DNA of 64,000 nucleotides from Streptomyces geranii (GTDB lineage Bacteria > Actinomycetota > Actinomycetes > Streptomycetales > Streptomycetaceae), in contig NZ_PJME01000008.1 of assembly GCF_002954775.1 (NCBI RefSeq), forward strand, positions 62,001 through 126,000, written 5' to 3'. Below, one piece after another: positions 9,069 to 54,896 of this stretch. A model generated the notes under the pieces. It had not been told where the DNA came from. It did not search any database and worked only from the letters and a program-made list of their open reading frames with translations. Both the position numbers and the translations under genes were made by a program. Within the stretch, counting starts at the first letter, position 1. The number at the start of each line of letters is the position of its first letter.

Positions 9069-9331
9069 TCTTCCACAGGTAAGAGATGCAATGTAGTTGT
9101 GACCATTACCTCTCCTCTTGGAGGGCGCGCTTCCGCGTGCCGCTGGCGGAGATCTTGGCCCGATGTGGAAACTTTTTCTCCTGCACAGCCGGTGGATGGG
9201 AAACATGCAGGTCAAAGGGGGTCGTTCGGAAGTCGCGAAAGCTTGTTCACAGGGCTGTCCACCGACTCGTGCACAGGTTTTGCGGAGTTCTCCACAGCAT
9301 CCGGGCCGTCGTCCACATGGCCTGTGGATAA
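9069..9331. promoter_or_regulatory. DnaA-box cluster upstream of dnaB
   Basis: A 450-base gene-free interval between the divergent MATE gene and dnaB. It contains one exact TTATCCACA (minus strand, 9323-9331) and near matches: TCTTCCACA (9069-9077), TTGTTCACA (9243-9251), TCGTGCACA (9267-9275), TTCTCCACA (9288-9296) and TCGTCCACA (9309-9317). The Streptomyces DnaA consensus is close to TTGTCCACA. This could regulate dnaB or titrate DnaA. Most members are one or two mismatches off consensus, so binding strength is uncertain. Confidence 0.6.
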
Positions 9332-17617: not shown

Positions 17618-17763
17618 GGCGCGCTTCCCTTCTCTGCCCTTCTCCCGGCCGTCCGGCCGGGCCCAACTATAAATAAGTCGATAGGTCTCTGTCGCTACAG
17701 TGATTGGACACTGACACAGAGTCAACTAGCCTTGCTTGCGCGGTTCTTCGCGCGCGGAACCGC

Positions 17764-17800
17764 GGCGGTCCGAGCCACGAGGGGGGAGGCTCGGACCGCC
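17764..17800 (-). terminator. Terminator of the holin-ptpA-gamma-lyase operon
   Basis: 13-bp perfect stem GGCGGTCCGAGCC/GGCTCGGACCGCC with an 11-nt loop, about 40 bases past the gamma-lyase stop codon (17842, minus strand). Confidence 0.8.
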
Positions 17801-17841
17801 GTCGCCCCGGCGGGAGCACCTCTTCGCCCCGCGCCCGGCGG

Positions 17842-44046: not shown

Positions 44047-44100
44047 TGATCCACAGCCAAGTCCAGTTATCCACAGGGGAATTGGCGAATCTGTGGACAA
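44047..44100. promoter_or_regulatory. DnaA-box cluster between kptA and the SDR fusion gene
   Basis: TTATCCACA (44067-44075, exact), TTGTCCACA on the other strand (44092-44100, exact) and TGATCCACA (44047-44055, two mismatches) in 54 bases upstream of kptA. Confidence 0.68.
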
Positions 44101-51304: not shown

Positions 51305-52117
51305 CTACGCGAGCAACCGCTCCAGCACCACCGCGATGCCGTCCTCGTCGTTCGACGACGTCACCTCGTCCGCCACCGCCCGCAGTTCGGCGTGCGCGTT
51401 GGCCATCGCCACCCCGCGCGCCGCCCAGGCGAACATCGGGATGTCGTTCGGCATGTCACCGAATGCGATCGTGTCCGCGGACCGCAGGCCCAGCCGACGG
51501 GCCGCCAGGGACAGCCCCTTCGCCTTGGACAGGCCCAGCGGAAGGAGTTCCACTATGCCCTCGCCCGCCATGGTCACTGTCACGAAGCCGCCCGCGGTCC
51601 GCGCGGCGACCTCGGTCAACCGGTCGGCGGACAGCGTCGGATGCTGGATGTAGATCTTGCTCAGCGGCTCGGCCCACAGCTCCGAGGGGTCCGTCAGCGG
51701 TACGAAGGGCAGTGAGCCCACGCCCGAGTAGCCCGCCCCGACCAGCACCTCGCCGTCCAGGCCCGCCCGGCTCGCCGCCAGGAACAGCGGCCCGGTCTCC
51801 GCCTCGATCTTCGCCAGCGCGAGCGAGGCCAGCTGCCGGTCCAGGGTGATCGACGTCAGCAGCCGGTGCGCCCCGGCGTCGTACACCTGTGCGCCCTGGC
51901 CGCAGACCGCGAGTCCCTCGTAGCCGAGTTCGTCGAGGATGTGCCGGGTCCAGGGCACCGCACGGCCGGTGACGACGATGTGCGCGGCGCCCCGCGCGGT
52001 GGCCGCGGCGAGGGCCTCGCGGGTGCGCGCCGAGACCGAGTCGTCGGAGCGCAGCAGCGTGCCGTCGAGGTCGGTCGCGACGAGCCGGTACGGGAACGAC
52101 CCGGAGCCGTCGGTCAC
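51305..52117 (-). CDS. HAD-superfamily phosphatase, Cof type (second)
   Basis: 270 residues with DLDGTLL, VTGR and [10 protein letters not shown] motifs, a paralogue of the gene at 41033-41902. GTG start at 52117 overlaps the serS stop in GTGA, so it is translated with serS. Substrate unknown. Confidence 0.88.
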
Positions 52118-53403
52118 TTGGCGACCGGCTCCAGCAGCTCCCGCCCGCCCAGATACGGGCGCAGCACCTCGGGCACCCGCACCGAACCGTCGGCCAGCTG
52201 GTGGTTCTCCAGGATGGCCACGATCGTGCGCGGTACGGCGCACAGCGTGCCGTTCAGCGTCGCGAGCGGCTGCACCTTGTTCTTGCCGTCGCTGGTGTCA
52301 CGCATCCGGACCGACAGACGCCGGGCCTGGAAGCCGTCGCAGTTGGAGGCCGAGGTCAGCTCGCGGTACTTGCCCTGGGTCGGGATCCACGCCTCGCAGT
52401 CGAACTTGCGGGACGCCGACGCGCCGAGGTCGCCCGAGGCCACGTCGATGACCTGGTAGGGCAGTTCGAGGCCGTCGAGCCACTGCTTCTCCCAGTCCAG
52501 GAGGCGCTGGTGCTCGTTCTCCGCGTCCGCCGGGTCGACGTACGAGAACATCTCGACCTTGTCGAACTGGTGCACGCGGAAGATGCCTCGCGTGTCCTTG
52601 CCGTAGGTGCCGGCCTCGCGGCGGAAGCACGGCGAGAAGCCGGCGTAGCGCAGCGGCAGCTTGTCGGCGTCGAGGATCTCGTCCATGTGGTAGGCGGCGA
52701 GGGGGACCTCGGAGGTGCCGACCAGGTAGAAGTCGTCCTTCTCCAGGTGGTACACGTTCTCCGCGGCCTGGCCGAGGAAGCCGGTGCCCTCCATCGCGCG
52801 CGGGCGGACCAGCGCCGGGGTCAGCATCGGGACGAAGCCGGCCTCCGTGGCCTGCGCGATCGCCGCGTTGACGAGGGCGAGTTCGAGGAGCGCGCCGACG
52901 CCGGTGAGGTAGTAGAAGCGCGAACCGGACACCTTGGCGCCGCGCTCGACGTCGATGGCGCCCAGCGCCTCGCCCAGCTCCAGGTGGTCCTTGGGCTCGA
53001 AGCCCTCGGCGCCGAAGTCGCGGATCGTGCCGTGCGTCTCCAGGACGACGAAGTCCTCCTCGCCGCCTACGGGGACGTCCGGGTGGACCAGGTTGCCGAG
53101 CTGGAGGAGGAGCTTCTTGGCGTCCTCGTCCGCCTCGTGCTGCTCGGCGTCGGCCGCCTTGACGTCGGTGGCGAGCCGGCCCGTCTTCTTGAGCAGCTCG
53201 GCCTTCTCCTCGGGGGAGGCCTTGGAGATGAGCTTGCCGATGCTCTTCTGCTCGGAACGCAGCTCGTCGAAGCGGACGCCGGACGCCCTGCGCCGCTCGT
53301 CGGCGGACAGGAGAGCGTCGACGAGCGCGACGTCCTCTCCACGGGCACGCTGCGAGGCGCGCACACGGTCGGGGTCCTCACGGAGCAGGCGAAGGTCAAT
53401 CAC
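52114..53403 (-). CDS. serS: Seryl-tRNA synthetase
   Basis: 429 residues, full length. N-terminal coiled-coil tRNA-binding arm (about 30-110) and class II core with motif 2 [14 protein letters not shown] and motif 3 [15 protein letters not shown]. It charges tRNA-Ser. GTG start at 53403 ([10 protein letters not shown]). It is coupled to the following HAD gene. Confidence 0.97.
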
Positions 53404-53963
53404 GGTCCAAGGCTACCGGTGCGAGGTCGGCGCTCACGACTCGGTATTTCCATACACCCCTTCTGCTGCTATTTGCCCGAAATGCCGATCACGTCAAGGG
53501 GAATGGGAGCGGTCCCCCGGAAGGATCTGCGGAGGCCTCGCCGGTTGACTCGAATCCCTTGCGGCGAACGGGACTTGAGGTGCGGCGAGGCGTGGTAATC
53601 CACACCCTCGAAAAGTTATCCACAGGCTGTGCGAAAGATCTGTGGATTACGGCGGTGATCGTTTCGGAAGGTGTCCGGCAGATGACCAATTCCCGAAGCA
53701 AACCACCCTCACGCCCACTTTCGGGTGGAAATGCGTAACCCCGGGGAGTTACGCCAGGGAAACGAGTGGACGAAGGGTGGCATGCCGGGCTGTGGACGAG
53801 TCGACGGTCTGTAGGCCGATTTGTCGACAGACCGGCACTCCGTTGTCGACTTGTCCCCAGGTCGAGAAGCTGGCCTGTGGATAACTTCTGTGGATAACGC
53901 AAATCGGCTGGTAGGACTGGCCCCAGGTAGCTGCCAGGAGCTTCCAGGAGCTGAAGGTCCGGT
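53404..53963. other. serS-pheA interval
   Basis: 560 bases. The serS-proximal third (53404-53590) holds its promoter region; no tRNA or T-box was recognised. The pheA-proximal two-thirds hold the DnaA-box cluster. Confidence 0.5.
53596..53897. other. DnaA-box cluster (large)
   Basis: Three exact TTATCCACA boxes: 53616-53624 (+), 53876-53884 (-) and 53889-53897 (-). One-mismatch boxes: TAATCCACA at 53596-53604 and its reverse at 53641-53649, TCGTCCACA (reverse) at 53791-53799, TTGTCGACA at 53821-53829, and TTGTCCCCA at 53851-53859. Eight boxes in about 300 bases, both orientations, makes this a likely DnaA-binding locus. Its position some tens of kb from oriC is inferred from gene order. Confidence 0.78.
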
Positions 53964-54896
53964 TTAGAAGCGGCCGTCCTGGCAGCGGGCCACCCAGTCG
54001 GCGGCCGTCACGAACTCGTCGTCGGACGTCCCCGGCAGCGGAGCGCGCACGTCCTCGACGCCGATGTCCGCACGCGGGTACGAACCCAGGTACCGCACCT
54101 TGAGACAGATCCGCCGGAGCCCCATGAGCGCCTCGGCGACCTTCCGGTCGGAAATGTGTCCCTCGGCGTCGATCGCGAAGCAGTAGTTGCCGATGCCCTG
54201 CCCGGTCGGCCGGGACTGCAGCAGCATCAGGTTGACGCCGCGTACGGCGAACTCGCCCAGCAGGTCGCGCAGTCCACCGGGGTGGTCGTCGCGCTGCCAG
54301 ATGACGACGGACGTCTTGTCGGCGCCGGTCGGCGCGGCGGGCCGGGCGGGCCTGCCGACCAGGACGAACCGGGTCTGCGCGTTCTCCGCGTCGTGGATGC
54401 CGGTCTCCAGCGCCGTGAGGCCGTAGCGGGCGGCGGCGAACTCGCCGGCGAAGGCGGCGTCGTAGCGGCCCTCCTGGACCAGCCGGGCGCCGTCCGCGTT
54501 CGAGGCGGACGACTCCCACACCACGTCCGGGAGGTTGATCTTCATCCAGTTGCGGATCTGCGACTGCGCCGCCGGATGGGCGGTGACCGTCTTGATCTCC
54601 GACAGCTTGGTGCCCGGCCTGACCAGCAGCGCGAAGGTGATCGACAGCAGCACCTCGCGGTAGATCATCAGCGGGGCGCCCGCGACCAGCTCGTCCAGCG
54701 TGGTGGTGATGCCGCCCTCGACGGAGTTCTCGATCGGCACGAACGCCGCCTCGACCTCGCCGCTGCGCACCGCGTCGAGCGTGGCGGGCACGGACACCAT
54801 CGGGATCAACTCCCGGGTGGCCGCCTCGGGAAGCGTGCGCAGGGCAACCTCGGTGAAGGTGCCCTCGGGGCCGAGATACGCGTAGCTGGCTGGCAT
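53964..54896 (-). CDS. pheA: Prephenate dehydratase
   Basis: 310 residues. Catalytic domain (about 1-185) with the TRF motif in NAQTRFVLVG and the conserved opening YLGPEGTFTEVAL. The C-terminal ACT domain (about 200-290) binds phenylalanine for feedback control; the usual ESRP reads QSRP. It forms phenylpyruvate from prephenate. It lies 51 bases past dtpA in the same direction. Confidence 0.95.
   Translation of the reverse strand: MPASYAYLGPEGTFTEVALRTLPEAATRELIPMVSVPATLDAVRSGEVEAAFVPIENSVEGGITTTLDELVAGAPLMIYREVLLSITFALLVRPGTKLSEIKTVTAHPAAQSQIRNWMKINLPDVVWESSASNADGARLVQEGRYDAAFAGEFAAARYGLTALETGIHDAENAQTRFVLVGRPARPAAPTGADKTSVVIWQRDDHPGGLRDLLGEFAVRGVNLMLLQSRPTGQGIGNYCFAIDAEGHISDRKVAEALMGLRRICLKVRYLGSYPRADIGVEDVRAPLPGTSDDEFVTAADWVARCQDGRF

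Follow-up and report, generated by a model that had tools for sequence, protein, structure and literature searches.

Why is the short region between serS and pheA in Streptomyces geranii crowded with DnaA boxes, and could it be the counterpart of D78, a DnaA-box cluster of Streptomyces coelicolor? The cluster occupies positions 53596-53897, 193-494 bp upstream of serS, in a 64,000-nucleotide stretch of DNA (contig C7:62001-126000) that is referred to here as the window. The original prediction had put it between these two genes, and the Pfam identification of both neighbours bears this out (Table 1). The predicted count of three exact and five one-mismatch boxes is also recovered in 53596-53897 with the Streptomyces consensus TTRTCCACA; with TTATCCACA alone as the query, three exact boxes and two with one mismatch are found in the same interval. 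The variant TTGTCCACA is described as the high-affinity box of S. coelicolor (PMC4285127).

A chance grouping of boxes can be ruled out. The surrounding 220 kb of the contig was simulated 60 times with a first-order Markov model, and the densest 302 bp of the real sequence contain eight boxes (TTRTCCACA with at most one mismatch), whereas the simulated maximum is three. Over the whole 220 kb there are 58 boxes, against an average of 26.7 in the 60 simulations. The 10.2-Mb assembly has 26 exact copies of TTATCCACA, seven of them on the cluster's contig and three inside the cluster itself, and the locus is one at which several strong DnaA boxes lie within a few hundred bp outside oriC.

One premise of the original prediction did not hold, namely that the cluster is far from oriC. 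The sole strong full-length DnaA match (C7:35989-36474) lies on the same contig, 79.4 kb away, and two DnaA-box groups near it (C7:34750-35270) correspond to the expected oriC. In all 20 other genomes compared, which had been picked for carrying either the serS cluster or a related module described below (the 44-kb type), the distance between cluster and dnaA is about 76.0-96.4 kb, with a median of 83.2 kb. At about 1% of a 10-Mb chromosome from dnaA, the serS cluster is thus oriC-proximal. Around oriC there are also 22 exact GTTTCACGTGAAAC palindromes across about 130 kb (C7 17088-145028), which we take to be the parS word. On the other side of oriC, a further DnaA-box cluster (C7 14097-14309) stands just after a small membrane-protein gene, presumably crgA, and a similar cluster occurs in two of six comparable segments of other genomes.

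Table 1. Features of the serS-pheA region and related DnaA-box loci, in positions of the window (contig positions in brackets)
Feature	Position	Strand	Basis
Third box cluster, offsets 0/45/66/80, upstream of the replicative helicase gene dnaB	9243..9331 (C7:71243-71331)		box scan
Second three-box module: TGATCCACA at +0, TTATCCACA at +20, opposed TTGTCCACA at +45	44047..44100	+	box scan
serS, seryl-tRNA synthetase	52114..53403	-	Pfam PF00587, PF02403
Conserved block at the serS start, probable leaderless serS promoter with -10-like TAGCCT	53404..53446	-	alignment, by eye
Conserved block GTTGACTCG..CCCTTG.GG..GGGACTTG, left of the cluster	53543..53579		alignment
Outer left DnaA box TAATCCACA, 20 bp before L2	53596..53604	+	box scan
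L2, strong left box TTATCCACA	53616..53624	+	box scan
L3, weak opposed box, here TAATCCACA, 25 bp from L2	53641..53649	-	box scan
Weak middle-segment box TCGTCCACA, not generally conserved	53791..53799	-	box scan
Weak DnaA-like word TTGTCGACA, 55 bp before R1	53821..53829	+	box scan
Conserved core TTGTCGACTTGTCCCCAGGTCGAGAAGC adjoining the right boxes	53843..53870	+	49-row alignment
R0, weak box TTGTCCCCA, 25 bp before R1	53851..53859	+	box scan
R1, strong right box TTATCCACA, 260 bp from L2	53876..53884	-	box scan
R2, outer right box TTATCCACA, 13 bp beyond R1	53889..53897	-	box scan
pheA, prephenate dehydratase; ends before the cluster	53964..54896	-	Pfam PF00800, PF01842

The cluster consists of two halves that are mirror images of each other, each made up of a strong box and a weak opposed box 25 bp further inward. 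Among the 159 genomes of the union defined below, L2 is TTATCCACA in 153 and R1 in 150. The outer left box L1 is in most genomes TTGTCCACA, 30 or 31 bp before L2, in place of the TAATCCACA found here at -20, and an exact TTRTCCACA stands at -30/-31 in 108 of the 159. R2 is an exact TTRTCCACA in 95, at a 13-bp offset from R1 (a gap of 4 bp) in 90 and at a 12-bp offset (a gap of 3 bp) in a minority of five. The right core, TTGTCGACTTGTCCCCAGGTCGAGAAG, extends over R0. It is strongly conserved across the 49 rows of the alignment, a few of which repeat a genome; among 31 genomes it has at most six mismatches in 27 positions in 20 and between 7 and 13 in 11. On the left, part of the conserved block outside the cluster is a weak DnaA word in some genomes. 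The interval 53404-53560 contains, besides the probable serS promoter, a GTCAATAAAAG-like element whose distance from serS shifts in roughly whole helical turns in the 80 genomes where it was recognised. A generic promoter and terminator scan of the cluster region, expected to perform poorly on high-G+C promoters, found none.

The conservation of this arrangement is best read from the serS upstream regions of 61 Streptomyces genomes that were drawn without regard to boxes (four of them from previously collected stretches), and the cluster is present in all 61. In 16 genomes from five other genera of the order, where pheA was not found next to serS and absence refers only to the serS side and the pair pattern, the cluster was not found upstream of serS (0/16). 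The 1 kb upstream of serS has no box in 15 of these and one box in the other, and a strong opposed pair 240-270 bp apart was found in none of the 16, compared with all four Streptomyces controls. The union of 159 genomes joins the unselected 61 with 36 picked on a three-box pattern and 62 picked on the R core. An exact R-core search yielded at least 118 stretches, with 80 loci among the matches listed; 73 rows were kept, and the removal of eight duplicates and three rows without a usable serS start left the 62. Those three have L2-R1 distances of 262 bp (L188, 2 bp from 260), 259 bp (L195) and 260 bp (L208). Five further rows without L2 were left out, four with the word near the end of the locus and the fifth being L240, in which serS, pheA and the right core are present and L2 was not found. 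R-core matches in Blastococcus and in a Proteobacteria MAG have neither L2 nor R1 and were taken as chance. A record titled Kitasatospora aureofaciens, the genus being as titled, keeps the architecture in the R-core sample. The three-box pattern was dropped as a definition of the serS cluster, its exact-spacing serS-type form occurring in 27 of 295 genomes versus 61 of 61 for the cluster.

Both inner boxes stay imperfect across the genus. In 58 of the 61 unselected genomes and in 156 of the union, the L3 core TCCACA is placed at precisely +25 relative to L2, and a leading TT occurs at L3 in none of the 159, against 3.9 expected from L3's own base frequencies. R0 has one mismatch to the consensus in all 159 and is never perfect, with shifts of up to 2 bp allowed and 62 of the genomes picked on the R-core word; in the 61 unselected genomes, no perfect box was found at -25 from R1. 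It stands exactly at -25 in 148 of the 159 and is displaced by 1-2 bp in the other 11, and its mismatch varies by lineage (CCCCA, GCACA, ACACA, TCACA).

The distance between the halves changes in turns of the helix. From L2 to R1 it is 257-261 bp in 126 of the 159 genomes, 268-273 bp in 19, 278-280 bp in seven and 290-295 bp in five, and distances of 302 and 312 bp also occur. It falls within a quarter turn of 260 + 10.5k bp in 155 of the 159 (30 of the 33 that do not belong to the 260 class) and in 59 of the 61 unselected genomes (19 of the 21 outside that class), leaving four and two distances, respectively, out of phase. Anchors were set without the weak boxes in the unselected 61; as a check for circularity, they were compared with anchors placed with the help of L1, L3 and R0, and the L2-R1 distance was identical with both anchorings in 60 of 61 genomes, the exception being L146 (303 versus 273 bp).

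Kinship was controlled for with a tree of pheA DNA from 151 genomes (eight of the 159 are not in it), on which length changes of 5-40 bp were counted by parsimony. Between the halves, 22 changes gave a V (mean cosine) of 0.684 at a period of 10.5 bp and of 0.525 at 11.0 bp, and the 51 changes between serS and L2 gave 0.515 and 0.560. The control interval from R1 to pheA is unphased, with V values of -0.005 and 0.051 over 79 changes, and its V in another analysis was -0.002. At 10.5 bp, the value for the halves was reached by 0 of 50,000 control-size draws, as was that for serS-L2; at 11.0 bp the phasing of the halves is weaker (p=0.0005 against control-size draws). All of these p values are indicative, since the samples overlap, the tree comes from one gene fragment and the changes are parsimony counts. 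The best period in the union was 10.2 bp for the halves, 10.9 bp for serS-L2 and 7.9 bp for R1-pheA (not significant, p=0.44), and the two phased intervals differ slightly (10.9-11.25 bp for serS-L2 versus 10.2-10.7 bp for the halves). In a sub-sample of at most 70 named genomes, the halves and serS-L2 were again phased, and R1-pheA was weakly so (V=0.22, p=0.008 at 11.1 bp; V=0.12, p=0.06 at 10.5 bp). Applied without a tree to the 17 different L2-R1 distances, the phasing test gave p=0.0003 at 10.5 bp and p=0.0006 over 9.5-11.5 bp. Inferred length changes thus follow the turn of the helix between the halves and on the serS side, but not on the pheA side.

The box anatomy, its conservation and location, the helical phasing and the weak boxes that stay imperfect are seen directly in the sequences; DnaA occupancy, looping, an effect on initiation and identity with D78 are inferred. 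Going by sequence, we lean slightly towards reading the 300-bp element as an oriC-proximal DnaA hub that restrains initiation; it would most likely be orthologous to D78, and its function analogous to that of datA. In this model, DnaA would load onto L2/L1 and R1/R2, the strong boxes, and from there extend cooperatively to the weak opposed L3 and R0, each 25 bp further in. With the halves on one face of the helix and about 25 turns apart, DnaA-DnaA contact could be made by looping, possibly via DnaA domain I dimers. The complex would keep DnaA from oriC, or alter the nucleotide state of DnaA, and would do so early in each round, as initiation is soon followed by duplication of the element. The phase relative to serS is preserved as well, which makes it probable that the complex contacts or senses the serS promoter.

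This putative looped restraining complex, with its contact to the serS promoter, is derived from three mechanisms known elsewhere. Selected oriC boxes tolerate respacing by a whole turn but not by a fraction of one (PMC4285127). High-affinity boxes in E. coli are bound by DnaA singly, while ATP-DnaA fills low-affinity sites cooperatively (PMC8682772). Domain I of actinomycete DnaA dimerises, and a proposal for S. lividans has domain I dimers, together with a long domain II, bridging the distant box clusters within oriC (PMC13270200).

A second locus in the window resembles one half of the serS cluster. The boxes of the module at 44047, 44067 and 44092 have the orientation and spacing of those at 53596, 53616 and 53641, the left half at serS, and the module (contig C7 106047-106100) lies 9.5 kb from the serS cluster, upstream of a kptA-type RNA 2'-phosphotransferase gene. 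Of 295 Streptomyces genomes, 190 match the spaced pattern TCCACA-N14-TCCACA-N16-TGTGGA; among the matches listed for them, most belong to the 44-kb type and some to the serS type, and the reversed form of the pattern has no match in the same 295-genome table. In a sample of the order the pattern was found in 115 of 197 genomes, all in one of six genera. Of 38 loci fetched, all preselected for the TCCACA cores and spacing, 34 are of the 44-kb type, with TGRTCCACA as the first box in 34, TTATCCACA as the second in 33 and TTGTCCACA as the third in 33. Their spacers hold a conserved CCAA...TTGG pair that flanks the central box; the pair does not correspond to a DnaA word and is a possible site for a partner protein.

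Two other observations were made in the window. The box offsets 0/45/66/80 upstream of dnaB recur in five of six other genomes and the sixth keeps 0/45/80; the final two boxes form a facing pair with a 14-bp spacing, a feature shared with the E. coli DARS cores, and the third box of those cores is absent. Positions 17680-17804 match Scr3920 (RF02828), a Streptomyces small RNA, in Rfam.

The main rival to an initiation-restraining hub is that the element chiefly serves DnaA-dependent control of serS, with DnaA bound 190-490 bp upstream looping to the serS promoter and tying seryl-tRNA supply to replication or the growth state. We regard this as possible, though not probable; what keeps it a serious contender is the phase towards serS (V of 0.52 at 10.5 bp and 0.56 at 11.0 bp over 51 changes, with 0 of 50,000 control draws reaching it at 10.5 bp), which is what a transcriptional element would be expected to show; the sequence does not demand a role in replication. 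The element accompanies serS in 61 of 61 genomes, and DnaA acts as a transcription factor elsewhere (PMC8203912). Against serS control, the probable serS promoter, placed by eye, sits at the start codon, with about 150 bp between it and the closest box, the two halves hold a phase of their own, and a like-spaced module beside another gene 9.5 kb away points to the handling of DnaA rather than to serS. The two roles may also be combined, in that one phase-locked, genus-specific DnaA loop would limit initiation and at the same time read or set serS expression, the mirror half-sites with their weakened inner boxes closing a loop that engages the serS promoter; this combined role seems to us rather unlikely.

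Passive titration, in which the boxes only soak up DnaA and their arrangement is irrelevant, would suit the high local box number and the proximity to oriC. B. subtilis offers a parallel, with several DnaA-box clusters outside its origin: removal of six leads to early initiation, which is partly relieved when one cluster is restored at various sites, yet their role in initiation is judged minor and the source text at hand mentions no phased bipartite layout (PMC5295017). The fixed 25-bp pairs, the persistently imperfect weak boxes and the phased bipartite architecture are unexpected of a passive sponge and argue against plain titration, which we consider improbable. Still less probable is a positive, DARS-like site that reactivates ADP-DnaA. 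Like DARS1 and DARS2 of E. coli, the serS cluster and the 44047-44100 module are two loci that share a three-box arrangement including an opposed pair (PMC8682772), but the E. coli cores, as scanned at bioD-uvrB and rppH-mutH, both have boxes at 0 (+), 14 (-) and 26 (-), whereas the shared module here has them at 0 (+), 20 (+) and 45 (-); moreover, reviews call the S. coelicolor clusters repressors (PMC4585315, PMC5742627). A structured or small RNA, rather than DnaA sites, is an unlikely source of the conservation, and we give it next to no weight. The 316-nt serS-sense strand does fold better than shuffled sequences (z=-5.7), and nine of the + strand's 24 consensus pairs vary in pair type while remaining at least 90% paired. 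The outer stem of this fold, however, is formed by the inverted DnaA boxes themselves, RNAalifold on 30 sequences leaves the middle mostly unpaired (24 and 14 pairs per strand over about 490 columns), no Rfam match was found at the cluster, and helical phasing belongs to DNA.

How the proposed hub relates to known negative elements bears on its identity. Smulczyk-Krawczyszyn et al. reportedly described three DnaA-box clusters of S. coelicolor in 2006, D78, H69 and H24, all of them near oriC; D78 is said to bind DnaA more tightly than oriC does, and its deletion is said to raise initiation. D78, moreover, is presumably named after the cosmid that carries serS-pheA. In reviews, the S. coelicolor clusters repress untimely initiation in the manner of datA (PMC4585315, PMC5742627), and one of the two places them close to oriC. 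The serS cluster shares with them the genus, the DnaA-box grouping and the nearness to oriC; mirror halves, helical phasing and retained weak boxes were not found described for them in the review passages. The proposed equivalence with D78 fits a cluster that lies near oriC, has a rigid layout and was found in all 61 Streptomyces genomes sampled. Its premise of a remote position was wrong, and the original prediction did not include the bipartite, helically phased architecture. The 44047-44100 module, 9.5 kb away, is also a candidate for D78, as it could lie in such a cosmid.

Among the E. coli elements, datA is likewise intergenic, with several DnaA boxes outside oriC and a negative role (PMC4585315, PMC5295017), and its spacing is constrained, as are the 25-bp distances L2-L3 and R0-R1 and the phased L2-R1 distance here. 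It differs in requiring an IHF site between its boxes 2 and 3 (PMC4585315), and in our scan its box layout is unlike that of the serS cluster. The R1-R2 tandem, with both boxes in one orientation, recalls the E. coli double DnaA box; the latter prefers a gap of 2-3 bp (PMC11317965), whereas the R1-R2 gap is 4 bp here.

The cluster itself is probably already known in S. coelicolor as D78. What is new is the genus-wide anatomy, the helical phasing and the maintenance of the weak boxes; among the titles and opening lines of abstracts in the open-licence literature, no description of a phase-locked mirror architecture with persistently weak inner boxes was found. To our knowledge, how initiation is limited in the multi-genomic hyphae of Streptomyces is poorly understood. 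Reviews cite the Streptomyces DnaA clusters just as datA-like repressors (PMC4585315, PMC5742627). The hub proposed here offers a falsifiable mechanism, with strong-weak pairs at 25 bp, halves on one face of the helix and a phase to serS, and the 44047-44100 module deserves attention alongside the serS cluster in studies of initiation control. The precise arrangement in the sampled Streptomyces suggests a built structure that limits chromosome copying, not a simple sponge. If a single loop did also engage the serS promoter, it would link chromosome copy number with the capacity for translation in a bacterium that grows as multi-genomic hyphae.
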